A DNA stretch of 64,000 bases from Anisus vortex (lineage: Eukaryota > Mollusca > Gastropoda > Planorbidae), in contig OX421495.1 of assembly GCA_949126835.1 (NCBI GenBank), positions 5,534,011-5,598,010 on the forward strand. The letters run 5' to 3'. The translations under genes were made by a program, and so were the position numbers. Under the pieces are notes generated by a model, which worked only from the letters and a program-made list of their open reading frames with translations, did not search any database and was not told the DNA's origin. Positions 7,522 through 34,877 of the stretch are shown piece by piece (position 1 is the stretch's first letter; each line of letters opens with the position of its first letter).

Positions 7522-10069
7522 CTACTGTGATTTCTGATTTAGACTTGACCTGTAGATCTCTAAAGACGCTGTGGCTTTTCTTATACTGTCTGCGTCAGGG
7601 TCTGTGGGTTCCATGTCCAGAAACTCCTTGAAGTGGTGGATAGTTTTGTTCAGCATCAATGTGTGGTCCAGCGAGGTGTGGACGTGAATCAACCTCTCAC
7701 AAACTATGGCGTAGTTACGGTGCCAGTAACTGGGCACCAGCTCGTGGGCGCTGAATTCTTTGGTGTACAGCTGACAAAGGGAAACAAATTTCAAGACAAA
7801 ATATAACACCTTAAACATTATAGAGCAAATAGATTAAGGAATTTCAAATTGACTAATTTATAATTTCATTCAAATTACTTTGACCATAAATAATATAATA
7901 ATAAAGTAATAATGGTTGTTTATATAGCGCTTCTATCCATGCTATTTTAGCATGCTCAGTGCGCTCTAGAAGATTATTACATCTACTAGGCCCAAAAACT
8001 CCTGCAGGGCGACCGGGACAGAATCTGTTACGTGTCGGTTGACAGTCCGGTGAACTAATCACAGGACCAGCCGGCCTCACACATGCTATGAATGCCACCA
8101 AGTAAGACATGAACTTTTAACACTTTTACATAATTACACCAACAAGCCACTGGGCGTATATTTTTGATATGTTCAAAGGAAAGTCTATGACTTACCAAAC
8201 AAATTTTCATTCATTCTAATTTGGTTTTTCTCTATTTTTTAAATAAATACTGAAATTTTTCTTTGCATGCAAAATGAAAACCAAATAGGCTACTACACAT
8301 TTTTCCCAATGTTTAATGAACATGACAGAATTTAAACTTACATGGTAGGACTCCTGCAGTAAGTGGACGTATTCTGGGCTGTTCTCTGGTTGTGCCAGGG
8401 CTTCCTCCAGGTAGAACAATGCCGTCACTGTCCTGGCAGGGGAAATGCAGTTTGTCTTAATATTTTCAGATGAAGAAGATCATTACGTCTGCCATAATTA
8501 TATAGCTATTCTTCACATTCTGACTTTGTTATATTGTGACTTTGTTTTTCATTAGTTAAGATTAATTTAATACAAGAAATAAATAGAAAAAAATGAATTA
8601 TTTATTCTAACTTGGCTCTCCACATTTCTGAACTGGCCACATTCTCCCAGGATCCATCACTAAACCTACAGCAACAAAAAAAAACAACAAAAAAACAACA
8701 ACACATTAATAATTAGAAAGATATAATTCTATTATGGGATATTATTAAACTATCCAGTAAGGAAAAGGTAACTTACAGCTGGGAGAAAGAACTAAAAGTG
8801 ATATTAGATTTATATTTCTCTAGTTCTCTAGCAAAGGTATAAATTTTATGTTTAAACACACACAATAAAGTTGTAACCTTTCACAACGGTCTCAGGCAGA
8901 ATATTTGTTTGATAGAGAAGAAGTTTAAATTTATATTTTTATCGTTTTTATTGTTTTATATATATTTATATAAACATATTTTTTTGGTAAGGAACTGTAA
9001 ACTGTAAATTGTTGTGGGAAATGGCCAATAATTGCTGGGAGGTAGAGCTTGGGAATAGCAATGCAGCTCACAACGCAGCTCACAACGCAGCTCACAACGC
9101 AGCTCACAACGCAGCTCACAACGCAGCTCACAACGCAGCTCACAACGCAGCTCACAATGCAGCTCACAACGCAGCTCACAACGCAGCTCAATATCACAAG
9201 ACTAACTGTTTAGGAATTTAAAAACAACCAATCAACCATAAGAACACGTGGGGATAGATCATTTTAAAATGAGACAAAACTGACCTGTCCCATGGGTGGG
9301 TCCAGTCAGTGACTAGGTTGGCTGTGTAGTTAGTCCATGCTGCGGCGTCCAGCACTTTAGCCTTGTCGACCAGCTGGAAACAAACACCGTAAGGCCAAAG
9401 AACATAGGAAGACATCCAGGAGGGCTCATGGTTCTGTACTCCAATGCAGGCGAAGATTGGGTGTCTAGAATATTACAAACTATTGTGTGAATAGTGATTA
9501 AAGCTAAAAATAGAGTACAGAGAAAAATTAGTGTATGAATAGGGAATACAAATAAATGGAATATGAATAGTGTGGATAAATCATTTTGTAAACAGAGACT
9601 ACAGTGAAATAGTGAATGAATAGTGAATTTGGGTAAATTAATATGTGAACAGAGAATACAGGTACCGGAAAAATAGAGAATGAATAGTGAATTTAGTATA
9701 TGAATAAAATAACAAATACTGGAAAATATTGTATGAAAATCAAGTACAGTAGAAAGCACAATAAGTTATTCCTTCGACAAAGTAACCTTATTTTACCTGT
9801 AATAATTGGCATCAATCAAATCTTTAAAAGTGAAGGCTCTTCTCCCATCTTTAGTCACACCTGAGTACAGCTGGAGAAAATCTCCTGGAAAAATTATCCT
9901 TGGCCAGAACTTTTTCATCATAGGAAGTGACCATTCATAGGTCAAGACCTAAAAGTGGAATAGAGCTATCAGGTGTTCAAATAAACCAACGAGTTTGTTT
10001 ATATATTACTTTTTTTAAATATATTTTTTTTTATATATATTATATATATATATATATAGAATATATCAA

Positions 10070-10104
<35 letters not shown>

Positions 10105-13100
10105 TATATTATATATATAAAAATTAATAATTTTTTTATATTATAAGTATTAAAATAGTAGTCCACATGGTGTAGAGCAGTGAAGTTTCCTATTGCAGCT
10201 CAAATTTTACCACCCATAACCTTGTAGGAATTTGGATTTCTACATGACCAATCCACCCCTTAAAATAGCTACGTCCTGGAGGTAAGAGCTGGAAGTGTTT
10301 TCTTTTACACTTGCAAATCGATCAAATGGTCCAGCTCAGTTGTTTTTTTCTTCTGAAATCATTCTAAAATTCACTAAGTTTTAACAAAACTTTGCAAAAA
10401 AAACAACAACAATACATAGTCTAGGTAATCATCCATTAGCATAGTGTTAACCATGTTAGCCAGCAGTGTGTACAAGTAGTCTGAAATTGATTATTTTAGT
10501 TATGGATGTTTTTTTAAGTTACTCATAGAAACAGCTATAACATAATTAAAAAAAGAAATATGGCATCAGCCTAATAGGTGTTAAGTGCTCCTTAACAACT
10601 TGGACATTGATTAAACACAACTTTTTGTAGAATAGATACATTAGAATGGACTTAGCAGAGTAAAAAAATATCTATTCTACAAAAGTTTGTATCCTTCTGT
10701 ACGTACCTCTTGATCAAATATTGAAAGATCAGGTCGGACATTTTCACAAAGATGGAAATACCTAATGGAGAAGACAAGAAATATACACTTGTTAATGTGT
10801 GCACAGGGTTTTGTGTGCACAGGGTTTTGTGTGCACAGGGTTTTGTGTGCACAGGGTTTTGTCTGCAAAAGAAAAAAAAACCCATCTCAGCAGCCTCGTT
10901 AGAAGTAACAAAACAAACCAGCAGCCTTTACTTTACCCCAACTAATGTCAGGTACCCATCAGATCTGGGGTAGACTCGGGGACACCCTCCAGTCCCAGGA
11001 ACAATATCTTAGCCTTCATCAGAATTCGAACCCAGGACCTTCGGTATGCATGCCGAACACGCTGCACCTCGGCCACAGTGTCCCATGGAAGGGATATTTG
11101 ACCTACTAACCTACTTTAATTCTACACAAGACAAACGATACAAATGCGGGTTTACCTAAAACTGTTGGAAGGTAAATCTCCTTTAGTCAAGATGATGGAA
11201 TCTTTAGGGAATTTCTCCAGGCTCTGAATGGCAAAGTCACGAATAACAAAATTGTTACTTTGATCAGTCACTGACCAGCTTTGGAGCTAGAAAACATTAA
11301 AGACAATTAGAAAGACAATGATGGAAAACTGATATATTATATAAACTTTATTAAATAACTACTGAATAATGTATGAACTAAAAAAAATGTCAAAGTTTAA
11401 GGACCCGCATAAATATTTGCATTCTGTTTATTTGAGTGGATATGTGATATATATATATATATATATGTGATATATATTTGTGATATAGGCTTTGTGATAT
11501 AGGCTATATTTGTGATATATATTTGTGATTTAGGCTACATTTGTGATATATATTTGTGATATATATTTGTGATATAGGCTATATTTGTGATATATATTTG
11601 TGATTTAGGCTACATTTGTGATATATATTTGTGATATATATTTATGATTTAGGCTATATTTGTGGTATTTTTAATTTATAGTCACAGAATTAAGCTTTTA
11701 CAATAGATAGATGGGCTATTCATATAGTCACCATTACCATTACAATATGATTTGATCCTTTTAAAATTCACTTAATGCCTCAAGCAGCTTTGTATTACTG
11801 AGAGTTCAATTGCTTGGTGATATCATAAGTACAAAGAGCTTAGTAAGAAATGAAAAACAAAACTTACAATGTATGCTGAGACTAGAGGTAGAACTAGAAT
11901 AACATCAAAATTCATCTGGTAGGTGCCAACTTTAGTAGAGAAAAATCTGGGATCATAAAAAAACAACAAGCAAATGTGAATTCTGAAAACATACTTCAAT
12001 TGAATCTCTAACAACAAAAAAAAACACCAACAAACTATATAAAGCTATGAATGTAAGACAAGAAAATTATCTCAATAAAAGTACCTGCAGACGTCAGCAA
12101 ATGCCTGGCTGGCCAAGATCACAAAAATCAAATCACTCTGAATCCAGAACCTTTCAATCTGAGAAATAAAGTTTTTATCAAAATAAGTTTCAAGCAAAAT
12201 AGAAACAAATATAGCATTTAAAACCTTATTTAATGAAAAATGATAAGGATCTTAGAAACAATAGCTTGTCTAGACTGATAGCTTGGGAGTAGTTAGCACT
12301 GACTTGGTTAATATTCCTGTATGTCTAAACCATGGGTAGAAGAATCAGAGACAGACTGTATTGACTCTACTGTAATTTCTAAAGCATAAATAAATTTCTA
12401 TTGCTGCCCAGACAGTACTTGGGGATTTTTATAACGTCCCCATTAGTGCAAAAACAGAATTTTTCTCTCATCTCACCACTTTATAAAAGAGAGGGTTTTC
12501 AAGATCCAGATTGGCTCTCCAGCAGAAGAAAACCACATACATTACAAACGACAACAGAAGTACAAAAAGAACATGGCTGTTATTGGACTTCCATCTGTAG
12601 CAGAAAACAAGAAATACTGGTAAACATTTATTGTTATTGTTTTACATCATTAATAAATTATTTCATAGAAATTTTTTTTTTAGATGCTAACAACCGAAAT
12701 TTTATTAAGAGTTTCAAATATTGAAAGAAATAATCTGCTAATGAACAATTTAACTAAAGCTTACACATAAACAGTAAAAGAAAAGAATTGTTTAGAAATT
12801 AACATGAAATATTTGAATTAAAAAATGGCTTTTCAGACTATTTTCAGACGTGAGCCCGGCTGGTCCTGCGGTTAGTTCACCCGGCTGTCAACCAAAAAGC
12901 AATCAAAACATTGCAGGTTCTATCCCTGCCGCCCTGCAGGAGTTTTGGGCATAGAGGACTAATAATCTTCTAGAGCGCACTGAGCATGCTAAAATTGCAT
13001 GGATAGAAGAAGCGCTATATTAATAACAATTATTATTTTAAAATATTGGGTAATAAAATTTCATAAGTGTAAAAATGTTGTTTCAAATTTTTGTTTCTAG

Positions 13101-16100
13101 TTACCGGGTAGTTCTGTTTTAATATTTTAAATAGCGTCAAGTCTATTGTGATATGTTCAATCTTAAAACTTACATGCATTCCTTCCGTAATTTAAAAGTG
13201 TAATTTAAAACCAACCTGGAGTATATGGAATATATAGAGAACACTGCCAGGGCCAATACAAATGGTGAGATGTCTGTTATGATATGGTTATAATAGGCTC
13301 TGAAACATACATGCATAATACATTACAGTCTATAGTGTGGAGTTTTGTCTATTGGACTAAAGAGTTTAGTTTACTTATATAAAATTACAGATATAGAGAC
13401 TAGATAAACAGTGGCTTTGTACTCACATCAGACCAGAAAGAAATCCTTGACCAGTGTGACCATTTAACTGAAAACGAATTCCCATAAATAATGTTAAACA
13501 AAAAGCTAAAAAAATCATAAAAATAATCCTAACTTTGCTGCATTTAGTGAATAGAATTATTTTTGTGTTTTATCAAAATTGTGCCACTAAATGTTATCCA
13601 GTACATATTTTTAACAATGAAATAAATGAAATGAGGAAGGCAACCTTTTGCTAATAGTGTGCCAAACTCTGATTTGTAAATTATTCAGCGTGCCAACAAC
13701 CTGAAAGTCAACCTGATCTACGATATTTTAATTTTTTTTTTGTTATAAGACAATTTATTACGCTTCGTAGCAACACCAAGGCCAAAAGCAAAGGTCTTTA
13801 TACAAAAATATAGTTGTTATTTATTTAATTAAAAATATTAAAGTTTTTTTTGTTTTATCAAATATTATAATCATAATTGAACTTTCACATTAATGGTTAA
13901 TGTCTAAAAATGTAATATAATTGATTCTTGAACCTACTAAATATTAATTATATTTTAATCTCAGACTAACTGATATTTTTTGTAATATTTTAGAATAAAA
14001 TGACAGCAAAGAACATCTCAAATAATGGAATTGATGCATTATAATCATACAAAGTCGGTAGCTAAAGTAATGCTCACAAACGTACATATAAATTCTTCAC
14101 TTCTATGATATTTATATCATTTTTAACTATCTTTTTTTAAATAGTTTTAATATTTTGAAGCTATAATTGTAAGCTACTAATTTTGTTAACAAATGAAAAA
14201 TAATAACAATTTTGAAATATTAACTCAAATAAAAACAGGTTAATTATCTCCCTTTAATTAAATTAAATTTTCCAAGTTTGATTCTATATTAGTGATGCCA
14301 ACCAAATATGTTATGTTTTGTAATATAACTAATATTACTTATTAATTGTTATTTTTTTAAGTACCGGTATAAATCTAGCATTATATTTTTTAATTAAATT
14401 TTTTTTTAAATTAATAATTACAACAATGACATAATATAATGCTAGTATATAAGTTTCTTATATTTATTAAAATAATAAAACAAATATTTTTTTTTTAGAA
14501 TAAATTATATTTATGCTTAATTAAAGAAGACGAGCATAAAAACTCTTTTGCATGTAGCCTAATAAGTCTGTATCAATTATTGAGCACCTTGTCCTCGAAT
14601 GCTCTTCACTGGTTGTTCAATGTCAAATAAATATTTAGTTACTTCTGAGTGGTCAAGTGACAACTTTCATGTGCTACAAAAATCTGTTCACAGGTATAAA
14701 TTGAACCAAAGGCTGAAAGTAGAGTGAATGCCTAGCAATTGACAATGGTAGATGACTTTCCTAAGCAGCTTCCTTATAGATTTTTTTTTGCAAATTGGTA
14801 CATTTTGACGCCTAATTTTGGATGTTTAAAATTCCCATTGCTGCATTTTAAAATAGTCACTACATTACTATACAAAAAAAGGTTTCAGATCTAAGAAGTA
14901 GTATAATAAATCCAGTCAGTCTTGATGTGATATAAAAACATGAGTTCATACATTTGATAGTGTCTTGCATTTGTTTAGAAAACTCGGCATTGAGTGCTTC
15001 AATGTAATCTGAAAAAATCCCATCTATCTATCTTAATTTGCCTTATATAAGTGAAAAAGTTCAAATGTTTTGAAATTGATTTCACTGTAAGATGTGTCCA
15101 GTTTCAATGCAAATTCTTTTCAGCAAGTTCAACTCATTTAAATGTGCTGCTAAGTCATTCAATACCGGAACATTAAAAAAAATCTATATCATTAATTGCC
15201 TCCAGACATGAAAGGAATCTATCCAAAACTTAACCCTTACAGTCCCGGTCGCGTATTATTTCCTCCATCTATTTCTTTCCCTCAGTCCCAGACACTTATA
15301 TTTCCCTCCAAAAAAGAAATCCCATCAGTCCCGGCCACGTATATTTTCCTCAAGGAAGGGTGTCTAATTAAAGAACAAAATAAAGGATCTGAAATTTCAC
15401 CATAGTCTCGGGCAGAATATTTATTCGATAGCTGAATAGTTTAATTGTATTCTGCTTTTTAAATTATGAAAATTATCCAATTATTTAGTTTTTTTTTTTG
15501 TGAAAATGAATGTGTGGTCCTAATAGACGCTACCAAATTACCTTCCGTTATTATGGCGGTACATGTTCATGTGACTTTTTCTTATGGATTATTATTACGA
15601 ATGAATACAATTACTTTATGAATAGGTTATTCTAATAAAGTTTTATGGTTCTAGCAATTTACTCTCTTCGTGTTATCAATTTTTACCAACAAAAAAGTAA
15701 ACAAAATAATTTCGGAACCCTATCGATGTCTCAGCCATTCTGAAATAATGTCTGAGATGGAGGGAATAATTAGTAAAATAATGGCTGGGACTGAAGGTAT
15801 ACATTGCAAATAAGTAGGTGGGTACTTTAAGGGTTAATCTCGACTAAGGTAAAGAACAATGAGTACTTTAACAGCAGTACTTTTTATTCCTTATCAGCTG
15901 GGTTTTAGTTAATTAAAATTTGGCTTAAAAAACTGGGCAGGAAATAAACTGTATAAAAATTATTTTTTTTTCTTGTAACATGCATAGGTTGTAGTAAAAA
16001 CAGTAAAGGACAACATGAAGCTAAGTGGAAGATACACTCCTATTAATAACCTCTGTTGATTCGGATGACTCTCAGGAATGTTGTTCACTACTGTCACAGA

Positions 16101-19100
16101 TTACATGACATGGACAAACTTTGAAATTTCCCTGTTACTTTTTCTTTTTAATAATAATAATAATAATAATGACATTTGTATAGCGCTGCCAACAAACATA
16201 TTGTAAGCTCAGAGCGCATTTAACATAACAATTAAAGAACACAGGTACAATCTATAGGCCAAGAGATAAGAAAAACAACTAAATGATGATTCAAAACATT
16301 ACAAACATAGAACAAATCAAACAACTAAAACAAAAAAGCATTTTCTTTATATGTTGTGTATGAAACATTAGTACAATGTTTTTTATCATAATGTAAAAAA
16401 CATTTAAATAACAAACCACACTAACAAGATAGACTAAGCTCATTAGCCGCAGTATCGATCAATAGATTTTTGTTCAGCCATTATCTCACCAAGTCCCAAG
16501 TTCCATATTCTATGCGCAGCAAGTGAGTCAGGAATCCCTGGATGGTCTGAGAGTTTCCCCACGTCCACCTGGCCATGTGAAGCCAGGAGGACACTGGCAG
16601 GTAAATGTACGGGGACAAGCCCAGCAGGAAAAGTAAAGTCTGTTTCTGTAACAACTTGGCACTCAGCAGCTGGAAGCAAATTTTATCAACAACAAAAAAA
16701 ATCATAAAATATACCATGGCAACTTAACAAGGGGCAATGCTAAATATTAAATATGCCACCTATAACATAGAGGCAGCCTTTGGGGGTTGGAGTAGACACA
16801 ACTGCCCCATGTCCAGCACCAGTAAGGGCCCCCTCCTCCCTGATATGAGATTCAATTGACTCCAGCAAAAATTAATATTATCTAGTTTGTAAATTTTTGT
16901 TAGCACAAATTTTCTGATTCATCAATTAAGATAGTTAAAGGCCACTAAATCAATAGAAGAACAATTATCAATTACAATATATAGTTTAATCTAGAATAGA
17001 AGGCATAAAGCATTATAAGCAGACAAGTCTGTGAGTGTTGGCTTACGTAATATAGCCTGTTTGTACAGTACATAACACAGAGATTGTGGCCCCCGCATAG
17101 GACACTGGGTTTAGGGCATTTTAGGCTCCCATATAAGATTTGCTCAAGGCACTGCTTATAACACTCGACCCAGGTCCCCCACACTGCTTTACTGCTTAAA
17201 AGCCCCATCTCTATTACTGATTTGGGAGACACAAGCATTCCCTGAGCCAATCAACACTCCTGATACAGAATCTGCCAATACCCTGCCGAGTACAATCTCA
17301 TGTTGGCAGACTTGGTATGGAGGAAGAAGGAAACTGTTCGTTCATTTGTTCTTTAAGAACTTGTTCTTGCACTGAACTCTTCTTGCATGCTCATTATTTT
17401 GTTTCAATTCAAGTTTTTTTAAATGTTTTATTAAAGTTATATTTATATTACTGTATTTAAACATTTTAGGCTAGAAAAGTCTCATTTACAAAATACAAAT
17501 ATAGGTATATATGTATGCATATGTAAATATATGTATATGTGCCCTGAGCTTACATTATGTTTGTTGGCAGCGCTATACAAATATTATTATTATTTATTAT
17601 TCTCAATACTGTTAAATATGGAAAATTGTAGAACATATCTTGCATTGCTATTAAGTATCAAATCTGTAAAGAGCAAACCACAAAATTGTGAGGAATTACT
17701 GTCTATCATATATATATATATCATTTTTACTTCCTTTCTTTTAACTCGTACTGTCTGCTTGGATGCTTGAAAAACTTTGCATCCATTTTTCGACCACTTC
17801 CCGTCGTCTAATCGAGCTGAAACTTGGGTAGCAGACTTGTCCAGACTAACAATACATTCTATCAAATTTTCAGCATCGTAGCCTTTAGAATAGTCACTAA
17901 TACCTTCGAACAATTTGCGAATCGAGGAACATATTATACGGAAAAACATGGCTGCCTTTGACGGAAGTAACTAAAGTTTTCGGATATGTTCGTTTTTACA
18001 AAAAAGTACGAATAAAAACGATACAATGTAGCAGAAACAAAGCGAGTTATCTTTTTATGTTTTTTGCGAGCCAAAGCTATATAAAAAAAAGGATGCGCAA
18101 AAGCAAAGCCACGATCGTGGCTTCATGCATTAAGAAAAAAATGCGCAATCGTTATAAATAGATATGTATTTGCCGACATTACGATTCGAAATTTTAGTTT
18201 TGTAGTGAAGTGGAAATGGTAAACTTTGTTTACAAAGAAAGGGAGTATAATAAAAACTGTTTTTATGGTTTTCTTGTTTGTTTTTCAGTATTAGATTTGT
18301 AGGTTGTTTTTTTCCAAGCACTACATGTTGTACCTTAAGTTTCCAGAGAGTGTAAAAGACCCACACTGTGATTGGAGGCATGAAGAGGGCACTGGTATGC
18401 TGATTGGTTAAGCACAAGCCACACAGAAAGGAGCCTATCAATGACACCTGCAATAACAAATACACCAAACATACTTTAGTTAAACATAGGTTCAACCATT
18501 GTATGCTGATTGGTTAAACACAAGCCACACAGAAAGGAACCTATCAATGACACCTGCAATAACAAATACACCAAACATACTTTAGTTAAACCTAGATTTA
18601 ACCACATATGCTGATTGGTTAAACACAAGCCACACAGAAAGGAACCTATCAATGACACCTACAGTAACAAATAAACCAAACATACTTTAGTTAAACCTAG
18701 ATTCAACCATGTATGCTGATTGGTTAAACACAAGCCACACAGATAGGAGCCTATCAATGACACCTGCAATAACAAATACACCAAACATACTTTAGTTAAA
18801 CCTAGATTTAACCACATATGGTTAAACACAAGCCACACATAAAGGAACCTATCAATGACACCTGCAGTAACAAATAAACCAAACATACTTATATTAAAAT
18901 TCAGTTCAACCATGTCATAGCTAGAGAGCCTAGTGAAACATATTATTTTCTTAACTTACCTTATCTGTTTCAAATTTTTTTTTTAATTGAGTACATATCT
19001 ATTGATCATAGGACTGAAGAAGCAGCTTTCACCAGTCTCTTTTTTACGTCATACAAGGGGGTGTATGGCCAGCACAATCCTCAGCCGCCTTTACCCCAAC

Positions 19101-21046
19101 TAATGTCAGGTACCCATAAGAGCTGGGTAGACTCAGGGACACTCTCGAGTCCCATGAAAAAACCGTAGCCTTCACCAGGTTTCAAGCCCAGGACCTTCGG
19201 TACGCTCAGCCACAATACCCTCTATCATCATTTGGTCCGAAGGATACTTTTTTTTTAGATATCTATGTCTTTAAGATCTGTTTATATTTAGTTATAGTAG
19301 TTATTGCAAAAAAAAAAATGTTATGTCTATAGTAACTTTGTATCTCAATATTAACTGTTAAACTGTATATTAAACTTCATCTCTATATTACATTTTTGTC
19401 TATTTATTAACATTACACATGACCAAAAAGTTTGATTCATGTTGTTTTTTTCCCTCTGGTTTTATACTGACATAAGTGTAACCCTTGACCCTTACTTTCA
19501 CTGACGCCTCTTTGCTACATGAATCAAACACAACGGCCGCCAATATCAAGCTGGACAGAAGGAGGTTGTTGAGGCTAAACACTTCCGCAGCAAGTGACCA
19601 GTGGCACACAAGAGGAGAGAAGCTAAATATGGCTGAAGCAAACAGAGCCGCCCCATGAAATAAAGTTAGCCTGCAACAAAGAAGAAGAAGAAAAAATCAA
19701 ATCAATTTTCGCTCCCATAATATTCTGAGTATTCTTCTAAAATTTACAACCGCAATTAGCATACACTTAAATATATTAATAAAAATTTTTTATTATTAAA
19801 ATTATTTTTTTTATATTATGTGTCATAAGGGGTATTGTTGAGGGTGTGGGGTTGTGGATTACTGGGGTTAGTGGTGGCTGGTTGTCGTAGGGATATGTGG
19901 CAGCAATGCTGTAATCGCTCTGGAATAATGATTATGTCTCTCCTGGCTCGTTAGATGGTATAACGTACACAACAGACAGTTCTAAGTGGTATACAAGCAA
20001 GGCTCTGGTTACGGTTATGGTGTTTGTTTTCATTCAATAGTCCCACGGTGAAATATACATGAATTGACACAGGAATAGCTAGCATTTAGCATATGGTAAT
20101 GTCGTGTACTCTATCATTAAGGTACGCGGCTACACTAGGGAAAATCTATTACTAGTCGAATGTGAAATATACATGAATTGACACAGGAATAGCTAACACT
20201 TAGTGTATGGTAATGTCGTGTACTCTATCGTTAACGTACGCAGCTACACTAGGGAAAATCTATTACTAGTCGAAAGTACAAGTGTTTTCAGGCTGATGGC
20301 CAAACCAAGACTGACGCTAAGACTCTCAGTTTTTGCGCGCTCGCGTCCTAGTCTTCAAATCACGTGATCTACCTCAATTTGGTTGGCTAATTGCATTAAT
20401 TTAGATTTAGATAGGATTACGATTGGCCAGTTCGAAGATAGTTCTGTATAAAGGGATGACTCACTGGAGGGAGAAAGGGGGGGGTGTTTAGGCGGGGTGG
20501 GGGGGAATTAGATAAACGTAATTAATACAGTCAACAAGCTGGGTAGTAGGGGGAACAAGGGATAGGGGAATGATTCATCTTCCCTTCAAGGGGACTTAAT
20601 ATTAAGGTGTAAAGTGGTCAGTCGTCCGACTTCCCCGAGAATGTTATGCATGTGTGAAAGGATTAACTGGTCAATTCCTCAAGAGCGAGCATCTCAAAGA
20701 GATTAGCTAACTTGCCGCTGATTACTAGTGAGTTGGGTATGTGGAGGGGAGATAAGTGGTGGCGGGAAGAGCGTGGGAAGGGGGTGCAGGTGGGGATTAG
20801 CAGGGCGTCGGGTATTTAGGCCAACGAAGTAATGCCTAGTTCATATACATTAAAATAGCAACATGAATTAATACAAAGACATAATAATAATAATATAAAC
20901 ATTAAGGAATTCACATATCTGACACACATACTCATTCATTCAAGGTTGAGTACCATTTCCGTAGCATTAGTTAGTAAACTCTTGGGAAATAATAGACTGT
21001 AGTGAAGGTTGGGGAGAGGTGTTGAAAGGTGGCTAGAGAGTTACAG

Positions 21047-21078
<32 letters not shown>

Positions 21079-24000
21079 TAATGACGTCAGACTACTTTCC
21101 TCCTTTCTATCCTAACTTACGCTAAATCTATGATCTTACTTTCTACACTACTAACTATCTACATGTGCTAATAAGTCAAGGTTGCGTCCAGAACCGTGAC
21201 ATTATGTATATTGTTAAATGAGAAATAAATAATTATTCATTGGGTTATACTTTCGATGAAGCTAATTTTAGTAAAGTGTAATTATATTGAATAACGGCAT
21301 ACATTTTTGTTTGTATATTAACATTTTAAAACTGTTAACAAGTTGGCCCAGGATCGGGATACCTGGAGAATTCTTGTTGGCAGCCTATGTCCCAGGTAGG
21401 GCGAAAGGCATAAGTAAGTAAGTAACAAGTTAAGTTAATCTCACTTCCTTTATGTGCATTTTTCTGCACAAATCAACAAAGCATATTAAGTTAGAAGAGA
21501 TATTATTTCTTGCAAAGCTTTGAGTGATTAAGCTATTTGATGCACACACAAATAATAGTTTGTTCAGCTAGCTGAAAGCATGAATTTATTCATTAAAATA
21601 CACAGATGAGAACTGCAAGCTTTCAGAATTTGGGTCAGGTTTATAATGTAATAAACAACATATCCTTGAGCTTACCTGTGCACCAACACATATAAAACTG
21701 CAGAGCTGCAGGCAGCGCAGAGTGCAGACAGCAGATTGACCTTCCAGGCCACTGAGGAGCCCGGGACGATAGTGATGAACAATTTAGCCAGAAGAGTGAA
21801 CAGAGGATAACCTGGTGGGTGAGCAACCTGAAACAAAGATTCAAGAGGGTAACATGGTGGGTGAGCAACCTGAAACAAAGATTCAAGTGGATAACATCGT
21901 GGGTGAGCAACCTGAAACAAAGATTCAAGTGGATAACATCGTGGGTGAGCAACCTGAAACAAAGATTCAATTGGATAACATGGTGGGTGAGCGACCTGAA
22001 ACAAAGATTCAAGTGGATAACATCGTGGGTGAGCGACCTGAAACAAAGATTTAAGAGGATAACCTGGTGGGTGAGCAACCTGAAACAAAGATTCAAGAGG
22101 ATAACATGGTGGGTGAGCAACCTGAAACAAAGATTCAAGAGGATAACATGGTGGGTGAGCAACCTGAAACAAAGATTCAATTGGATAACATGGTGGGTGA
22201 GCAACCTGAAACAAAGATTCAAGTGGATAACATGGTGGGTGAGCAACCTGAAACAAAGATTCAAGAGGATAACATGGTGGGTGAGCAGCCTGAAACAAAG
22301 ATTCAATTGGATAACCTGGTGGGTGAGCAACCTGAAACAAAGATTCAATTGGATAACCTGGTGGGTGAGCAACCTGAAACAAAGATTCAAGAGGATAACA
22401 TGGTGGGTGAGCAACCTGAAACAAAGATTCAAGAGGATAACATGGTGGGTGAGCAACCTGAAACAAAGATTCAAGTGGATAACATGGTGGGTGAGCAACC
22501 TGAAACAAAGATTCAATTGGATAACATGGTGGGTGAGCAACCTGAAACAAAGATTCAAGTGGATAACATGGTGGGTGAGCAACCTGAAACAAAGATTCAA
22601 TTGGATAACATGGTGGGTGAGCAGCCTGAAACAAAGATTCAAGTGGATAACCTGGTGGGTGAGCAGCCTGAAACAAAGATTCAATTGGATAACATGGTGG
22701 GTGAGCAGCCTGAAACAAAGATTCAAGAGGATAACATGGTGGGTGAGCAACCTGAAACAAAGATTCAAGTGGATAACATGGTGGGTGAGCAACCTGAAAC
22801 AAAGATTCAATTGGATAACATGGTGGGTGAGCAGCCTGAAACAAAGATTCAATTGGATAACATGGTGGGTGAGCAACCTGAAACAAAGATTCAAGTGGAT
22901 AACATGGTGGGTGAGCAACCTGAAACAAAGATTCAAGAGGATAACCTGGTGGGTGAGCAGCCTGAAACAAAGATTCAATTGGATAACATGGTGGGTGAGC
23001 AACCTGAAACAAAGATTCAAGTGGATAACATGGTGGGTGAGCAGCCTGAAACAAAGATTCAATTGGATAACATGGTGGGTGAGCAACCTGAAACAAAGAT
23101 TCAAGTGGATAACATGGTGGGTGAGCAACCTGAAACAAAGATTCAAGTGGATAACATGGTGGGTGAGCAGCCTGAAACAAAGATTCAATTGGATAACATG
23201 GTGGGTGAGCAACCTGAAACAAAGATTCAAGTGGATAACATCGTGGGTGAGCGACCTGAAACAAAGATTCAAGAGGATAACCTGGTGGGTGAGCAACCTG
23301 AAACAAAGACTCAAGAGGATAACATGGTGGGTGAGCAACCTGAAACAAAGATTCAATTGGATAACATGGTGGGTGAGCAGCCTGAAACAAAGATTCAATT
23401 GGATAACATGGTGGGTGAGCAACCTGAAACAAAGATTCAATTGGATAACCTGGTGGGTGAGCAACCTGAAACAAAGATTCAAGAGGATAACATGGTGGGT
23501 GAGCAACCTGAAACAAAGATTCAAGAGGATAACATGGTGGGTGAGCAACCTGAAACAAAGATTCAATTGGATAACATGGTGGGTGAGCAACCTGAAACAA
23601 AGATTCAAGTGGATAACATGGTGGGTGAGCAACCTGAAACAAAGATTCAAGAGGATAACATGGTGGGTGAGCAGCCTGAAACAAAGATTCAATTGGATAA
23701 CCTGGTGGGTGAGCAACCTGAAACAAAGATTCAATTGGATAACCTGGTGGGTGAGCAACCTGAAACAAAGATTCAAGAGGATAACATGGTGGGTGAGCAA
23801 CCTGAAACAAAGATTCAATTGGATAACATGGTGGGTGAGCAACCTGAAACAAAGATTCAAGAGGATAACATGGTGGGTGAGCAACCTGAAACAAAGATTC
23901 AAGAGGATAACCTGGTGGGTGAGCAACCTGAAACAAAGATTCAATTGGATAACATGGTGGGTGAGCAACCTGAAACAAAGATTCAATTGGATAACATGGT

Positions 24001-27000
24001 GGGTGAGCAACCTGAAACAAAGATTCAAGTGGATAACATGGTGGGTGAGCAGCCTGAAACAAAGATTCAATTGGATAACATGGTGGGTGAGCAACCTGAA
24101 ACAAAGATTCAAGTGGATAACATGGTGGGTGAGCAACCTGAAACAAAGATTCAAGAGGATAACATGGTGGGTGAGCAACCTGAAACAAAGATTCAATTGG
24201 ATAACATGGTGGGTGAGCAACCTGAAACAAAGATTCAAGTGGATAACATGGTGGGTGAGCAACCTGAAACAAAGATTCAAGAGGATAACATGGTGGGTGA
24301 GCAGCCTGAAACAAAGATTCAATTGGATAACCTGGTGGGTGAGCAACCTGAAACAAAGATTCAATTGGATAACCTGGTGGGTGAGCAACCTGAAACAAAG
24401 ATTCAAGAGGATAACATGGTGGGTGAGCAACCTGAAACAAAGATTCAAGAGGATAACATGGTGGGTGAGCAACCTGAAACAAAGATTCAATTGGATAACA
24501 TGGTGGGTGAGCAACCTGAAACAAAGATTCAAGAGGATAACATGGTGGGTGAGCAACCTGAAACAAAGATTCAAGAGGATAACCTGGTGGGTGTGCAACC
24601 TGAAACAAAGATTCAATTGGATAACATGGTGGGTGAGCAACCTGAAACAAAGATTCAATTGGATAACATGGTGGGTGAGCAACCTGAAACAAAGATTCAA
24701 GTGGATAACATGGTGGGTGAGCAACCTGAAACAAAGATTCAATTGGATAACATGGTGGGTGAGCAACCTGAAACAAAGATTCAATTGGATAACATGGTGG
24801 GTGAGCAACCTGAAACAAAGATTCAATTGGATAACATGGTGGGTGAGCAACCTGAAACAAAGATTCAATTGGATAACATGGTGGGTGAGCAACCTGAAAC
24901 AAAGATTCAAGTGGATAACATGGTGGGTGAGCAACCTGAAACAAAGATTCAAGAGGATAACCTGGTGGGTGAGCAGCCTGAAACAAAGATTCAATTGGAT
25001 AACATGGTGGGTGAGCAACCTGAAACAAAGATTCAAGAGGATAACCTGGTGGGTGAGCAGCCTGAAACAAAGATTCAATTGGATAACATGGTGGGTGAGC
25101 AACCTGAAACAAAGATTCAAGTGGATAACATGGTGGGTGAGCAGCCTGAAACAAAGATTCAATTGGATAACATGGTGGGTGAGCAACCTGAAACAAAGAT
25201 TCAAGTGGATAACATGGTGGGTGAGCAACCTGAAACAAAGATTCAAGTGGATAACATGGTGGGTGAGCAGCCTGAAACAAAGATTCAATTGGATAACATG
25301 GTGGGTGAGCAACCTGAAACAAAGATTCAAGTGGATAACATCGTGGGTGAGCGACCTGAAACAAAGATTCAAGAGGATAACCTGGTGGGTGAGCAACCTG
25401 AAACAAAGACTCAAGAGGATAACATGGTGGGTGAGCAACCTGAAACAAAGATTCAATTGGATAACATGGTGGGTGAGCAGCCTGAAACAAAGATTCAATT
25501 GGATAACATGGTGGGTGAGCAACCTGAAACAAAGATTCAATTGGATAACCTGGTGGGTGAGCAACCTGAAACAAAGATTCAAGAGGATAACATGGTGGGT
25601 GAGCAACCTGAAACAAAGATTCAAGAGGATAACATGGTGGGTGAGCAACCTGAAACAAAGATTCAATTGGATAACATGGTGGGTGAGCAACCTGAAACAA
25701 AGATTCAAGTGGATAACATGGTGGGTGAGCAACCTGAAACAAAGATTCAATTGGATAACATGGTGGGTGAGCAACCTGAAACAAAGATTCAAGTGGATAA
25801 CATGGTGGGTGAGCAACCTGAAACAAAGATTCAATTGGATAACCTGGTGGGTGAGCAACCTGAAACAAAGATTCAAGAGGATAACATGGTGGGTGAGCAA
25901 CCTGAAACAAAGATTCAATTGGATAACATGGTGGGTGAGCAACCTGAAACAAAGATTCAAGAGGATAACATGGTGGGTGAGCAACCTGAAACAAAGATTC
26001 AAGAGGATAACCTGGTGGGTGAGCAACCTGAAACAAAGATTCAATTGGATAACATGGTGGGTGAGCAACCTGAAACAAAGATTCAATTGGATAACATGGT
26101 GGGTGAGCAACCTGAAACAAAGATTCAAGTGGATAACATGGTGGGTGAGCAGCCTGAAACAAAGATTCAATTGGATAACATGGTGGGTGAGCAACCTGAA
26201 ACAAAGATTCAAGTGGATAACATGGTGGGTGAGCAACCTGAAACAAAGATTCAAGAGGATAACCTGGTGGGTGAGCAGCCTGAAACAAAGATTCAATTGG
26301 ATAACATGGTGGGTGAGCAACCTGAAACAAAGATTCAAGTGGATAACATGGTGGGTGAGCAACCTGAAACAAAGATTCAATTGGATAACATGGTGGGTGA
26401 GCAACCTGAAACAAAGATTCAAGTGGATAACATGGTGGGTGAGCAACCTGAAACAAAGATTCAATTGGATAACATGGTGGGTGAGCAGCCTGAAACAAAG
26501 ATTCAAGTGGATAACCTGGTGGGTGAGCAGCCTGAAACAAAGATTCAATTGGATAACATGGTGGGTGAGCAGCCTGAAACAAAGATTCAAGAGGATAACA
26601 TGGTGGGTGAGCAACCTGAAACAAAGATTCAAGTGGATAACATGGTGGGTGAGCAGCCTGAAACAAAGATTCAAGTGGATAACCTGGTGGGTGAGCAGTC
26701 TGAAACAAAGATTCAAGTGGATAACATGGTGGGTGAGCAACCTGAAACAAAGATTCAAGTGGATAACATGGTGGGTGAGCAACCTGAAACAAAGATTCAA
26801 TTGGATAACATGGTGGGTGAGCAACCTGAAACAAAGATTCAAGTGGATAACATGGTGGGTGAGCAACCTGAAACAAAGATTCAATTGGATAACATGGTGG
26901 GTGAGCAGCCTGAAACAAAGATTCAATTGGATAACATGGTGGGTGAGCAACCTGAAACAAAGATTCAAGAGGATAACATGGTGGGTGAGCAACCTGAAAC

Positions 27001-27653
27001 AAAGATTCAAGAGGATAACCCGGTGGGTGAGCAACCTGAAACAAAGATTCAAGAGGATAACCTGGTGGGTCATTTGTTGGCCTAAAAAATTCTCAAAATA
27101 ATCTTGCATGTAGGCAAGTATGATAAAACAAATCGCTCAATAAAATATATTTTTACTCAGCCAGATAATTTTTCAATTTTTTTTTATTTTAATGTAATGC
27201 AATTATGAACTCAAAATTTTGAGTTTTAAAAAGTGGGAAAATCTATTGAAAAGTTGTCATATAAGGTCATTCGGTAATTTGTGAATGCTTCGCAACAAAA
27301 TTTTTGGGGGTGAAATCCCATTGAATAAAAAAAGAGTATTTGTAACTCTAATAACAAAAGGTATCAAATATATATATATAAAGAAACATTGTATTCTTAT
27401 TTTATTGTTTGCAACTCTTACTTTCTTTACATGGGTTACATGTAACAGTTGGAATAATAAATGCATTGGTTAAGTTAAAGTGTTGATTGATATTTTACTT
27501 GCTTTGACAACTTACCCCCAGTTCATGGGCAGCAGCTATCAATTCGCCCGAGTCCCCTCCTGGTAGAGATGGATGAAGTCGGGCTACATAGAGAATGAAG
27601 CTGAAGGCAAAAATAAATAACCCGACAGAGTACAAGCTTGGTGCATGAAACAT
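7522..27653 (-). CDS. TMEM260 homologue, ER protein O-mannosyltransferase (17 coding exons)
   Basis: Multi-pass membrane enzyme of the DUF2723 family. The human protein is an ER O-mannosyltransferase acting on IPT domains of plexins and the MET and RON receptors (established knowledge). Exons from the ATG: 27516-27653, 21676-21827, 19496-19670, 18334-18447, 16490-16669, 13427-13467, 13216-13299, 12477-12594, 12085-12158, 11868-11946, 11156-11286, 10707-10761, 9797-9948, 9285-9464, 8612-8665, 8342-8432, 7522-7770. All junctions are GT-AG and phases are compatible, giving 688 residues (human about 700). Family landmarks in order: GGDSGELIAAAHELG, HPPGYPLFTLLAKL, SLAAEVFSLNNLLL, CLTNQHTSALF, YLPVSSWLHMARWTWG, FLTHLLRIEYG, FCWRANLDLENPLF, TKGDLPSNSFRYFH, and a C-terminal YWHRNYAIVCERL. 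The acidic GGDSGE loop after the first membrane helix is the likely GT-C catalytic loop (inference). Introns 1 and 3 contain tandem copies of the next exon's 3' splice site. Confidence 0.93.
7905..8085 (-). mobile_element. SINE family B copy (tRNA-derived), intron 16 of TMEM260
   Basis: Reads on the minus strand from GGCTGGTCCTGTGATTAGTTC through a GTAACAGATTC B-box-like part to a tail with GCGCTCTAGAAGATTATT... and ATAGCGC. It matches the copies at 12849-13030 and 30236-30360. Confidence 0.7.
8876..8925. repeat. Short fragment shared with the piggyBac-like element
   Basis: The words GGCAGAATATTTGTTTGATAG and flanks resemble GGCAGAATATTTATTCGATAG at 15409-15429, inside the element at 15230-15837. 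It is probably a decayed related insertion. Confidence 0.4.
9063..9190. repeat. 12-bp minisatellite CAGCTCACAACG
   Basis: About ten and a half tandem copies with one substitution (AATG for AACG), in TMEM260 intron 14. Stop-free frames on both strands are artefacts of the 12-bp period. Confidence 0.92.
10020..10130. repeat. (TA)n microsatellite
   Basis: Interrupted TA dinucleotide tract in TMEM260 intron 12. Confidence 0.9.
10797..10863. repeat. 16-bp tandem repeat near exon 12 acceptor
   Basis: Four copies of GTGTGCACAGGGTTTT, the last one varied. The array starts 35 bp upstream (in gene sense) of the exon 12 acceptor at 10762, inside the region where the branch point should lie. Confidence 0.85.
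10924..11088 (-). mobile_element. SINE family A copy, 3'-truncated, intron 11 of TMEM260
   Basis: Minus-strand copy with the tRNA-like head at the right (GGTTCGAATTCTGATG, the B-box, and GTGGCCGAGGTGCAGCGTG, the A-box) and the conserved body GGTACCTGACATTAGTTGGG. Confidence 0.85.
11440..11668. repeat. Degenerate TTTGTGATATATA repeat
   Basis: Two dozen or so loosely tandem words (TTTGTGATATATA, TTTGTGATATAGGCTA, TTTGTGATTTAGGCTACA) in TMEM260 intron 10. Confidence 0.8.
12849..13030 (+). mobile_element. SINE family B copy (plus orientation), intron 7 of TMEM260
   Basis: Starts GAGCCCGGCTGGTCCTGCGG, an A-box-like tRNA head, has the B-box-like GGTTCTATCCCTGCC, and ends with GCGCACTGAGCATGC and an ATAACAATTATTATTT tail. 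It is the best-preserved copy of this family here. Confidence 0.8.
13468..15229. other. Long AT-rich part of TMEM260 intron 5
   Basis: Apart from the hAT-like fragment, I see no gene or clear repeat here. It is very AT-rich intronic sequence. Confidence 0.6.
13626..13705. mobile_element. hAT-like fragment
   Basis: Contains GGCAACCTTTTGCTAATAGT, GTGCCAA and CGTGCCAACAACCTG. These words resemble the termini of the hAT-like element at 42033-42238. Decayed; no boundaries assigned. Confidence 0.4.
15230..15837. mobile_element. piggyBac-like non-autonomous element (TTAA ends)
   Basis: The 608-bp segment starts TTAACCCTTACAGTCCC and ends GGTACTTTAAGGGTTAA. That gives TTAA at both ends with CCCTT-type terminal inverted repeats, the hallmark of piggyBac elements. 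No transposase frame is present. An internal degenerate repetition of CAGTCCC-rich sequence follows the left end. Confidence 0.65.
16150..16245 (+). mobile_element. SINE/LINE 3'-tail fragment with (AAT)n
   Basis: Sequence (AAT)n-GACATTTGTATAGCGCTGCC followed by a GTAAGCTCAGAGCGC part also occurs inverted at 17540-17605. It is the tail of a dispersed retroelement next to a trinucleotide repeat. Confidence 0.55.
17540..17605 (-). mobile_element. SINE/LINE 3'-tail fragment (inverse of 16150 copy)
   Basis: Contains CCCTGAGCTTAC...GGCAGCGCTATACAAATATT, then an ATT-rich tract: the reverse complement of the 16150-16245 copy. Confidence 0.55.
17728..18247. mobile_element. Non-autonomous DNA transposon, copy 2 (TIR TACTCCCTTTCTT)
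   Basis: 520-bp segment starting TACTTCCTTTCTTTT and ending AAAGAAAGGGAGTA, in opposite orientation to the copy at 6081-6531. It shares several interior blocks with that copy, including TGAAACTTGGGTAGCAGACT, and has no transposase. It lies in intron 4 of TMEM260, about 85 bp downstream (gene sense) of exon 4. Confidence 0.65.
18334..18447 (-). CDS. TMEM260 exon 4
   Basis: 114 bp, phase 0 to 0, encoding VSLIGSFLCGLCLTNQH and then TSALFMPPITVW, a membrane helix with the family's NQH motif. The 5' part of this exon and its acceptor are repeated upstream at 18448-18915. Only this copy continues into the full exon and ends in a donor (AAG before GTACAA). Confidence 0.85.
18448..18915 (-). repeat. 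105-bp tandem repeat of the TMEM260 exon 4 acceptor
   Basis: Additional copies of the exon 4 3' splice site plus its first 51 bp (VSLIGSFLCGLCLTNQH) and 54 bp of intron. Acceptor CTG words on the plus strand occur at 18448 (real exon), 18554, 18659 (mutated to CTA, so TAG), 18764 and 18862; spacings are 106, 105, 105 and 98 bp. The copy nearest the exon is out of frame with it by one base, so using upstream acceptors would not simply extend the exon. Confidence 0.93.
19009..19240 (-). mobile_element. SINE family A copy, intron 3 of TMEM260
   Basis: Minus-orientation copy with body GGTACCTGACATTAGTTGGG and a tRNA-like head with B-box-like GGCTTGAAACC at the right. Confidence 0.85.
20048..20275. 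repeat. 114-bp tandem duplication inside the solo LTR
   Basis: Two copies starting GTGAAATATACATGAATTG and ending near TATTACTAGTCGAA. Direct repeats of this kind are common in LTR U3 regions (general knowledge). Confidence 0.85.
21052..21079. repeat. (GA)n microsatellite
   Basis: About thirteen GA dinucleotides inside the solo LTR. Confidence 0.95.
21676..21827 (-). CDS. TMEM260 exon 2, minimal form (canonical acceptor)
   Basis: With the acceptor TTTGTTTCAG ending at 21828, the exon reads VAHPPGYPLFTLLAKLFI and continues through a membrane helix to LVHR, phase 2, before GTAAGC. This form gives a protein matching the family without insertion. Directly upstream, the same acceptor plus the first 26 bp of the exon is repeated 124 more times, so the 5' end of this exon is ambiguous in vivo. 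Confidence 0.85.
21828..27076 (-). repeat. 42-bp minisatellite made of the TMEM260 exon 2 splice acceptor
   Basis: The unit is 16 bp of intron end (TGAATCTTTGTTTCAG) plus the first 26 bp of exon 2 (GTTGCTCACCCACC onward). The AG-defining CTG on the plus strand recurs from 21828 to 27036, exactly 124 intervals of 42 bp, so there are 125 acceptors and no net length variation. Units differ at a few positions: GTTGCTC, GCTGCTC or GTCGCTC after the AG; CCAGGTTATCC or CCATGTTATCC; and TTGAATC variants. In the exon frame each unit encodes VAHPPGYPLESLFQ, or a variant with Cys for Gly, Ile for Leu and Ala or Thr for the first Val, with no stop. The distal edge decays into intron sequence after 27070. 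Confidence 0.97.
27516..27653 (-). CDS. TMEM260 exon 1: start codon, first membrane helix, GGDSGEL loop
   Basis: ATG at 27653 begins MFHAPSLYSVGLFIF, a hydrophobic first helix, followed by LPGGDSGELIAAAHELG. The exon ends in phase 0 with GGG before GTAAGT. The presumed 5' UTR of this exon begins after an AG at 27668, so at least one further untranslated exon is likely upstream. The conserved family sequence continues directly into exon 2 (V-A-H-P-P-G-Y-P), which fixes the splice partner. Confidence 0.9.
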
Positions 27654-27660
27654 TCTGTCA

Positions 27661-27730
27661 GAAATGTCTGAAAATAAAACATCAAGATGTTAGAAATGTC
27701 TGAAAATAAAACATTAAGATGTTAGAAATG
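27661..27730 (-). repeat. 32-bp duplication at the exon 1 acceptor of TMEM260
   Basis: A unit starting GAAATGTCTGAAAATAAAAC and ending AAGATGTTA (plus strand) is present twice, with a third partial copy. In gene sense each full unit carries TTATTTTCAG followed by ACATTTC, so the presumed 3' splice site of the 5' UTR part of exon 1 is doubled. Confidence 0.75.
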
Positions 27731-30172
27731 TTTGACTATTTAAATTAAAAGCTGAGAATTAATTTACAAATACTGAAGATATTGCGGTAAAAACTTGATG
27801 AAAAGCAAATTCAATGATCACTTTTCAAATCTGCATCCCGTGGTTAGAAAAATTAAACGTCATGTTTCCATCAAAAAATTAAAGTAGGCCTACATCTCAG
27901 ATGTTAAGGGACCTAATCTATTACTTTGAATTTTTAAAACTTCTCTTTTTTTAACACGGAGTGCTTTATGTAAGAGTGACAATTATGTACTTTAAGAAGT
28001 GGGTGAAATATTGTTTTAGCTTGTATTGAAACCCAGTAGGCATACTGTTTTGTAATCATAAAAAATTAACCTGTATCTTAACATAATTTAAAACACTAAT
28101 AGAAATGCAGGACTAGACTCTAACCACAAATGTGCATAGGATGCAATAATCTTCTTTATAGAAGGAGCATGATCTATAATGTATTTATATAAGGTAAGTT
28201 TAAAGAACCACAGCGTGAAACTTAAGTTATGTGTTGTTAAAAACTGATAATTAGAATTTAATTGTAAGATCTTACAATTTCACCAACCAATTCATTACAA
28301 ATACAATTCTTGTTCGGCAAGAAAAGGGTTACCTGTACTAATGGTAGACAGTTTAAGTTAGTATAACTTCATTTTAACATCATTAGTCTCATTAGACATC
28401 ACTTGCAGTCTAACCAGTTTTATCAGCATCAACAGGCAAACCACAGATTAGCATAGGGTGTAATATATTATTCCTAGACATTTCTAAATGACAAGAAGAT
28501 ATATATAGGCGTAGCTGATATACATCTCATAATTAATAATGTAATTTTTCAGTTGATCGTAGTTCATCATTTTAATTTTATATCTCTAAGCTCACAGACA
28601 TGGTAGGCTAAACTTTGAGTTAATTTTATGCAAAATATGAATTAAATATGCCTAAATATTCCTAATATGGAAGATGACCAGATCCATGATATATATATCA
28701 TCCAAATGAATGAATTTTTATTTAATACATTTTTCAATATTCTTGTTGACAAATCTTTATCACATTTTATTTAGCCTACTTAGAGACTTACGGTAGATCT
28801 TAATATAAATATAGGCCCTAGCCCTAATAGTAAATTAGAATCATCAGGATTTTATTTACTTTTAGCCACTTTATAAACTTTATTTATAGTCATAGTTATG
28901 AGTCATAGTATTTTATTTTATGGTTCAACAATCAACGCAGTTAACAATAGGCCTAACAGTATTAACAGTTACAATCAGTTAGTTAAGTTGACTGTCATAC
29001 ATACATAACTTTCATTTAAAAAGCTCATAACTCATAACTTACTCATAAGTCATAAGCCTAAGCCTAAGCCTGCCTAAGGCCCTACGCCTACGCCTAATTA
29101 AAAATATTTTAAGTCATAAGGATAAGGCATAATTTAAATAATTATGATAAATAGTTAAAATAGCCTATTGATAAGTAGATAAGTAAGGTTTGAAAGCGAC
29201 ATATCACCTATCGGATTCACAAATCACAAAAAAAAAAAAAAACATGCTAAAATTACTAAAAAATAATTTGATTGTGCAATGAGCCGAAGTTTTAAAACTA
29301 AAAGTAGGGATTGCAATAAAATTTGGTAATAGAAAAATTCCGTGAGGCAGTTAAACCAAAGTTTAGCCTAAAATTTCACCATTCAAATTTGCCAAATTAT
29401 TCTAATTTAAAATTGCAGAAGTCGTTACGTACCAACAAATATAATGTTTTATTTAGTTACCAGGTCTAATTAATTTGCACTTGTACTAGTAGTTTTAAAC
29501 TAGCATCTAGCAGTACAAAAATAAAACACATAATCACTGAACTCTATATTATTACATTATTGATATTTTATCTTACATGTTACAGACTAGGCCTACAGAC
29601 GCTCCTTTTATTTTAAGAAGATTATTCTGCCCAACTCGGTGATTTATTGATTGACTATGTGTTATGTCTACATTTTTAGCCACGTTTTTACCAGCTTACC
29701 CCCCTTCCATCCCCAATCAAGACAATTTTAATCAACTCACAAGTCAACAACTGTAACTGTCAAATTTTTAAGGGGCCCTTAATAACATTATACACTATTA
29801 TACAAAATTATGTAGCCTATAGGCTAAATTGTAAATTCCATCAAGGCCTATATCCAGTAGCGTCAAGGCTGGTGCAGTACGCAGCCTACGCCTCTGCCTT
29901 TATAGGCCAAATTAAAATGTAAAAAAAAAAGATTTTGAGCCTAATTTTAATTTTGTAATTGTTTTTGAAAACACTGTTAAATTTTGTTGTATGTTGTTAT
30001 ATTTGTCAGAAACCTTTTATAAAATCTAATGTCTTAACCTAATAAATCTTATTTTTATTTTATTATTACCAGTTTTTCAGTTTAAACACAAATATTGAGA
30101 GTCCATGATCCCTAGAGTTGATACTCATGCTGAAGCAAAATATGTTTTAAGTTGGCTATGCTTTGCTTTAGT
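27731..30172. other. Intergenic sequence upstream of TMEM260 exon 1
   Basis: AT-rich, with many short words such as TAGGCCTA and GCCTAAG (for example 29040-29100). No coding sequence or clear promoter was recognised. It should contain the TMEM260 promoter and a possible untranslated first exon on the minus strand. Confidence 0.4.
28075..28200 (+). mobile_element. LINE 3'-end fragment
   Basis: Shares AATGCAGGACTAGACTC and GCAATAATCTTCTTTATAGA with the copies at 44707 and 51310. Only the extreme 3' part is present. Confidence 0.6.
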
Positions 30173-30221
30173 TGGTGGGTGAGCAACCTGAAACAAAGAT
30201 TCAAAGCAATGCTTTAGTTTT
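30173..30221 (-). repeat. Dispersed single copy of the 42-bp TMEM260 unit
   Basis: About 32 bp identical to the array unit (GGTGGGTGAGCAACCTG through AAACAAAGATTCAA, plus strand) sits alone between two copies of GCTTTAGTT (30165-30173 and 30211-30219). It includes the whole TTTGTTTCAG acceptor. It lies about 3.1 kb from the array edge and upstream of exon 1. Confidence 0.85.
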
Positions 30222-30360: not shown

Positions 30361-30737
30361 ACGTCTATAAACGTATAAGTCAATTGTATTATTATAATAG
30401 AACAATGCTGTTTTGTCTCTTTCCAAGGTTTGGCTCAAGCCAGCAATTTTTTCCTTTAATATTTCTATTGGAACAAAATTCTTTATTTTTTTTATACAAT
30501 TTGGCATTCATCTCTTATGACAATGCAGGCCTTAATATTGATGTCAGCCGTTTAGCAGATTCAGTAATAAATATATACCGGTATATATATCTAGTGAAAA
30601 AATGTGTTCAGGATGTTTAAACTCTGCAATTGAATATTAAATCTTACACTTTTTTTTTTTTTACCAGGGTTTGTTTTTTAAATTCAATACACATTTTGGT
30701 TTTTACTTGAATATTTAGGCTATGCTAAGAACACCAT

Positions 30738-34617: not shown

Positions 34618-34877
34618 GTAAAGTACCCTTCTGACCAAACTGATCATAGCAGCGTTCACCAGTTTCTATGGCCACGGTATACGAGGGGATGTGTGGCCAG
34701 CACAATGCCCAGCCGCCTTTACTTTACCCCAACTAGTGTCAGGTACCCATCACAGCTAGGTAGACTCAGGGGCACCCTCAAGTCCTGGGAAAAAATCCTA
34801 GCCTGCACCAGGATTTGAACCGAGAACCCTCGGATCACCAGTCAAACGCACTGCCGCTCGGCCACCTTGCCCCACAG
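34618..34877 (-). mobile_element. SINE family A copy with target duplication
   Basis: Full-length minus-orientation copy, flanked by CTCAATATATAA at 34606-34617 and 34878-34889 (12 bp, perfect). Head at the right with GCCGAGCGGCAGTGCG and GGTTCAAATCCTGG. Confidence 0.92.

Follow-up and report, generated by a model that had tools for sequence, protein, structure and literature searches.

A 125-copy tandem array of splice acceptors in front of exon 2 of a snail TMEM260 gene, probably a mirage minisatellite

We analysed a window of 64,000 nucleotides from the gastropod Anisus vortex (contig OX421495.1; positions below count from the first letter of the window). Its minus strand carries a TMEM260 gene (Table 1). 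Exon 2 gave a Pfam TMEM260-like match (E 2.6e-13), and the gene and exon named in an earlier note on this DNA were borne out. There was no sign of a pseudogene, as the 688-aa coding sequence was intact over its 17 exons and ended in one terminal stop. Two protein searches with TMEM260, in both of which the length of the candidates was restricted, were evaluated on the best 120 of 1457 and the best 120 of 803 matches. The closest proteins among the best 120 of 1457 were TMEM260 of Biomphalaria glabrata (76%) and of Bulinus truncatus (75%), and alignment to these two gave 77% identity each; the search at shorter length had a top identity of 57% among its best 120 of 803. No protein or transcript-derived protein of the same species was among the matches listed in either search. 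Solved structures of a TMEM260 protein (9rql, 9rqm and 9rqn) were matched by sequence only. The other internal coding exons of the gene (n = 14) measured 41–180 nt, and 11 of its 16 introns were shorter than 800 nt. Upstream of TMEM260, the minus strand also carries a phospholipase C-beta gene (window 36600–63310), whose closest relative among the matches listed was that of Biomphalaria.

Table 1. Features of the TMEM260 locus (window coordinates; a slash marks the splice point).
Feature	Position	Strand	Remarks
TMEM260 gene	7522..27653	−	688 aa in 17 coding exons; one stop, at the end
TMEM260 exon 1, coding part	27516..27653	−	from ATG to donor GGG/GTAAGT
TMEM260 exon 2	21676..21827	−	152 nt, donor CACAG/GTAAGC
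Unique donor-proximal part of intron 1	27071..27515	−	
Tandem array over the intron 1/exon 2 acceptor	21805..27070	−	42 bp × 125.4, Tandem Repeats Finder
AG of donor-proximal array acceptor	27036..27037	−	intron of 480 nt if used (27515–27036)
AG of exon-proximal acceptor	21828..21829	−	joining here makes an intron of 5688 nt and the conserved protein
Solitary exact copy of the unit core	30173..30204	−	32 bp, TTGAATCTTTGTTTCAGGTTGCTCACCCACCA; outside the array
Second acceptor-spanning array, exon 4	18395..18898	−	105 bp × 4.9; junctions AG/GTGTCA
Third repeat, before the ATG	27656..27735	−	32 bp × 2.5; spans acceptor-like sites

Tandem Repeats Finder reported a single array with a period of 42, 95% matches and 0% indels over the border of intron 1 and exon 2; as drawn by the program, it extends 23 nt into exon 2 proper. 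Between 21500 and 27800, TTTGTTTCAG followed by exon 2 sequence occurred 125 times on the minus strand, and the distance from one acceptor to the next was exactly 42 in 124/124 cases. The first exonic bases of these 125 acceptors run from 27035, nearest to the exon 1 donor, to 21827, at exon 2 proper. Each unit consists of 16 bp of intron end (TGAATCTTTGTTTCAG) and 26 bp of exon start. We distinguished 19 unit types, and unit positions 31–42, a 12-nt stretch of pyrimidine tract plus AG, were invariant in 124/124 units. The copy number, the make-up of the unit, the tract and AG kept in all copies and the intron of about 480 nt to the donor-proximal copy had all been described in the earlier note, and our counts agreed with it; the array that it had placed at 21828..27076 was recovered as well, except that it ends at about 27070 and starts, as drawn by the program, at 21805. 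A 21-mer spanning the junction (≤3 mismatches) had 126 matches in the window, compared with an average of 0.00 over 100 shuffles, so that chance is excluded. The 126th match (30177–30197), absent from the earlier note, lies outside the array in a solitary copy of the unit core, which has the same orientation and is separated from the array by 3.1 kb; the ATG exon lies 2.5 kb downstream of it. The solitary copy shows that the unit sequence can be copied to another place, by whatever route. The 9-bp direct repeats that flank this copy (ACTAAAGCA) were not significant, as sharing of this extent occurs in 10% of random flanks. RNA of about five units (24500–24710, minus strand, 211 nt) folded less than each of 200 shuffled versions (z +2.29), which argues against a hairpin model.

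The unit types recur in blocks. The longest exact block comprised 17 units at a lag of 50 units, compared with at most 8 in 500 shuffles, and unit identity at lag 50 was 0.43 versus 0.09–0.22 at 13 other lags. Rare unit types accounted for six of the last eight units, at the exon end (P = 1e-4, for a window of eight chosen after looking), and for one of the first eight, at the intron end. The blocks and the rare types at the exon end fit unequal exchange with less homogenisation at the exon edge, and the block structure, seen in one haplotype, is consistent with length instability between haplotypes. Long arrays are often mis-sized, and the partly repeated block 50 units apart would suit a real array of wrong length or a mis-assembly. 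We consider such an artefact very unlikely, however: the 19 unit types follow no simple period, divergent units are found at the exon end, and TMEM260 holds two further acceptor-spanning repeats in a window with many other minisatellites. A precedent for the artefact is an amphioxus 'mirage', a repeat of the kind compared below, whose draft was thought aberrantly assembled by its authors in the passage cited (PMC3087553).

To score the acceptors, we used a matrix trained on 35 other acceptors in the window, picked by hand: 16 from TMEM260 (with the probable 5'UTR acceptor included and that of exon 2 left out) and 19 from the phospholipase gene. The array acceptors scored 5.57–8.92, within the range of the 35 others, and their median of 7.74 was above 60% of these. 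The first and the last copy had an equal score of 7.74; therefore position, not local signal, must decide between them. A CTCAC match, which fully fits the branch-point pattern yUnAy, was located 34 nt before the AG in each of four unit types checked. The invariant tract plus AG might hint at use of the upstream copies, although the hint is weak: an invariant run of 12 had a P of 0.13 anywhere in the unit and of 0.008 at the positions observed.

Joining exon 1 to any of the acceptors gave an uninterrupted in-frame coding sequence in 125/125 cases, with products of 688–2424 aa; a unit is 14 codons long and stop-free in the gene frame, a property absent from the earlier note. This open frame is not by itself evidence of selection, since a second frame is equally stop-free and the synonymous excess was not significant (6/12 variable unit positions synonymous in the gene frame, P = 0.09). 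The only competing AGs translated were 23 CACCCACCAG sites and the three best-scoring AGs in the unique part of intron 1. None of the 23 yielded a full coding sequence, and the three off-register AGs (27347, 27242 and 27081) led to stops at codons 72, 63 and 49, respectively.

Which copy is used was an apt question of the earlier note, which had suggested that the copy first reached from the donor might be chosen. If the spliceosome committed to 27035, exon 2 would be 5360 nt long and the protein 2424 aa, with 124 repeats. This copy offers the shortest intron, is transcribed first and is equal in score to the last one; the gene frame stays open throughout, and the short introns of the gene (11/16 below 800 nt) make recognition across introns, favouring the first copy, also plausible. 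Such a commitment is nevertheless highly improbable in our judgement, because the exon would exceed every other internal coding exon of the gene more than 20-fold in length, 1736 residues would come between exon 1 and the invariant HPPGYP junction, the conserved Gly codon GGT is changed to TGT in 101/124 units, and the equivalent choice at exon 4 leads to a stop.

The protein comparison bears directly on the junction. Residues G46, V47 and H49–P54 (the HPPGYP region) were invariant in 38/38 aligned proteins, and no insertion at the exon 1/exon 2 junction was present in 7/7 other snail and sea-slug proteins aligned, five of which read exactly GVAHPPGYPLFTL there. These results indicated that the conserved protein needs the acceptor at 21827; the choice of any upstream acceptor would split the G46-V47/H49–P54 motif. 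In the AlphaFold model of Biomphalaria TMEM260 (mean pLDDT 90.8), the motif lies in loop 44–53, between helices 35–43 and 54–66. Judged from this model, residues inserted at the junction would lengthen a loop, albeit one that is invariant.

The array sites could also be considered as donors. The junction dinucleotides of the 125 sites were AG/GT in 100, AG/GC in 24 and AG/AC in one. Their median donor score was 3.01, below which only 2/33 mapped donors fell, and 570 of the 3437 GTs outside the array on the same strand scored at least as high as this median. If the acceptors were exchangeable and partly dual-specific at AG/GT, stochastic splicing would produce mRNAs with a variable number of 14-aa repeats, as in human UBC. 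We regard this as unlikely. It would draw on the frame being kept at all 125 acceptors, on AG/GT at 100 of them, on the above-average rank of the array acceptors and on the donor CAG/GTTGGT at 13216 in TMEM260, which is fixed by the reading frame and is one base from CAG/GTTGCT; in UBC, nine ubiquitin units split by AGGT sites give an RT-PCR ladder, and the sites tend to be weak there too, according to the passages cited (PMC10809524). However, the donors of the array are weak and 25/125 sites have no GT; the repeats would split a motif that is invariant in 38/38 proteins. The repeat motif occurred in none of 359 fetched proteins (the two TMEM260 searches, taken to the best 120 of 1457 and the best 120 of 803, supplied 239; none was from the same species); a second HPPG was found in four fetched proteins, but at other places in the protein. 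In addition, the amphioxus mirages are said in the passages cited not to disturb splicing (PMC3087553, PMC3902484). We hold the full form of such splicing, with 125 rungs, to be quite doubtful: its isoforms would carry anywhere from 0 to 124 additional 14-residue repeats in the conserved loop that connects the helix following the GGDSGEL motif with the next one, and the distribution of junctions would then reflect acceptor-choice kinetics and perhaps tune enzyme output.

Two other repeats of TMEM260 lie on acceptors or acceptor-like sites. The acceptors of the exon 4 array are at 18861, 18763, 18658, 18553 and 18447; a full coding sequence resulted only from the last (18447), and the four upstream ones (4/5) led to early stops. 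Compared without gaps, these four copies were identical to the last at 36–43 of 45 intronic and 41–51 of 53 exonic positions. The exon 4 array suggests that upstream copies can decay freely. The 32-bp repeat before the ATG has acceptor-like sites with first following bases at 27699 and 27667, and we infer that this repeat holds a used 5'UTR acceptor. Additional acceptor copies upstream thus seem to be tolerated in TMEM260. No special cause has to be invoked for repeats falling on acceptors: with 30 repeats of period ≥10 placed at random, exons not being avoided, 3.3 would be expected on acceptors and 3 were observed (P = 0.70). None of the 33 mapped donors was inside a tandem repeat (3.1 repeats expected), nor was any of the 19 mapped phospholipase C-beta acceptors. 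Tandem repeats, merged to 33, cover 16% of the window. One of them, downstream of TMEM260, is a 45-bp × 32 array (window 4564–6010) that is 99% identical and open in a frame per strand; its near-perfect copies suggest a recent expansion. Similar translated pieces, recognized by eye, recur on both strands at 30728–31039, 34618–34815, 49827–49994, 51448–51714, 56483–56795 and 59916–60174; they are perhaps a dispersed repeat family, possibly SINE-like.

We favour, as a fairly probable explanation, that the array is a mirage minisatellite, in which exon 1 is mainly joined to the exon-proximal acceptor at 21827 and the rest is tolerated as intron. To judge from its structure, the array would have begun when 42 bp across the intron 1/exon 2 border were duplicated in tandem, and unequal or block-wise exchange would have enlarged it to 125 copies. 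The copy at 21827 and the exon 2 donor enclose an exon of normal length (152 nt), so exon definition would favour this acceptor; the size of the other internal exons suits such a mode of recognition. The other 124 copies would then leave with a 5.7-kb intron. Any leak to another copy would add only 14n residues, which may contribute to tolerance. The array would be tolerated because the last copy leaves exon 2 whole and the unit is 14 codons that are stop-free in the gene frame. As far as the sequence comparisons go, the exon 4 array and the invariance of the junction motif speak for use chiefly of the exon-proximal acceptor, and, taken together with the undisturbed splicing of the mirage papers, they weaken the idea that the donor-proximal copy is used instead of the conserved one. 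The counterweight is that all 125 acceptors are about equally strong and that the first copy has the shortest intron and is transcribed first.

Most likely, the array is a repeat of extreme size that does little harm. Its copy number, its complete frame safety and the presence of three cases in one gene are unusual. Within the open-licence PMC literature searched, with BflGb6 as the mirage compared for copy number, no larger set of equivalent acceptors was met, provided that the array is real. The 125 near-identical sites differ mainly in their distance to the two neighbouring exons, and product length, in steps of 42 nt, would reveal which copy is used; the array is therefore a natural test of acceptor choice, in which intron length and transcription order compete with distance to the downstream donor.

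The earlier note knew of no described array of this kind. The lack of precedent that it assumed fails in view of the amphioxus mirages and of the UBC, IFI6 and potato RdRp cases, all of which are compared here on the passages cited. Mirages are minisatellite-like repeats with a unit spanning an intron–exon boundary, and were described in amphioxus for Adh3 and the globins BflGb6 and BflGb9 (PMC3087553); troponin C and PGBD5 provided further examples (PMC3902484). The TMEM260 unit likewise holds an intron end and an exon start. The closest counterpart in position is the BflGb6 mirage, which comprises the 3' end of an intron plus the start of exon 2 and has 6 and 3 copies in two haplotypes (PMC3087553). 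Its inner units are homogenised and its boundary units are excluded from this, a pattern that the TMEM260 array shares at the exon end only. The repeats of a mirage keep splice signals, although not every one has to; the TMEM260 array keeps TTTGTTTCAG in 125/125 units. It differs from the amphioxus cases in belonging to a mollusc, in having 125 copies instead of the 6 and 3 of BflGb6, in a 42-bp unit whose length is divisible by 3 and which has no stop in the gene frame, and in sharing its gene with two more repeats of this type. For the amphioxus mirages, splicing is reported or thought to be undisturbed, and we infer the same for the TMEM260 array. Our results thus extend mirages from amphioxus to a mollusc, with three in one gene.

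Human UBC has nine in-frame units between AGGT sites, and its stochastic splicing produces a ladder in RT-PCR (PMC10809524). In UBC and VCX3A, AG/GT sites are regularly spaced, and, as in the TMEM260 array, the frame is kept whichever site is used (PMC10809524). The units of UBC, however, are nine functional coding monomers, whereas the TMEM260 unit is part intron, with AG/GT at 100/125 sites and low donor strength. A C. elegans intronic minisatellite (PMC4039745) and human DDX3Y (PMC3039753) were set aside as comparisons on the passages cited. In the donor minisatellite of IFI6, two more units of the repeat reportedly act as donors, so that three mRNAs arise. It also is a minisatellite that offers more than one equivalent splice site on the same side of an exon; these are donors, in contrast to the TMEM260 array on the acceptor side, in a window where 0/33 donors lie in a tandem repeat. 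In potato RdRp, a two-copy tandem duplication over the intron 1/exon 2 acceptor created a new intron, as supported by RNA reads (PMC4974935). There too the 3' end of the intron and the start of exon 2 were duplicated, and the copy inherited the branch site, the tract and the AG (PMC4974935). The potato case has two copies and an RNA-supported intron; the anatomy of the TMEM260 array is compatible with an intron gain of this kind.
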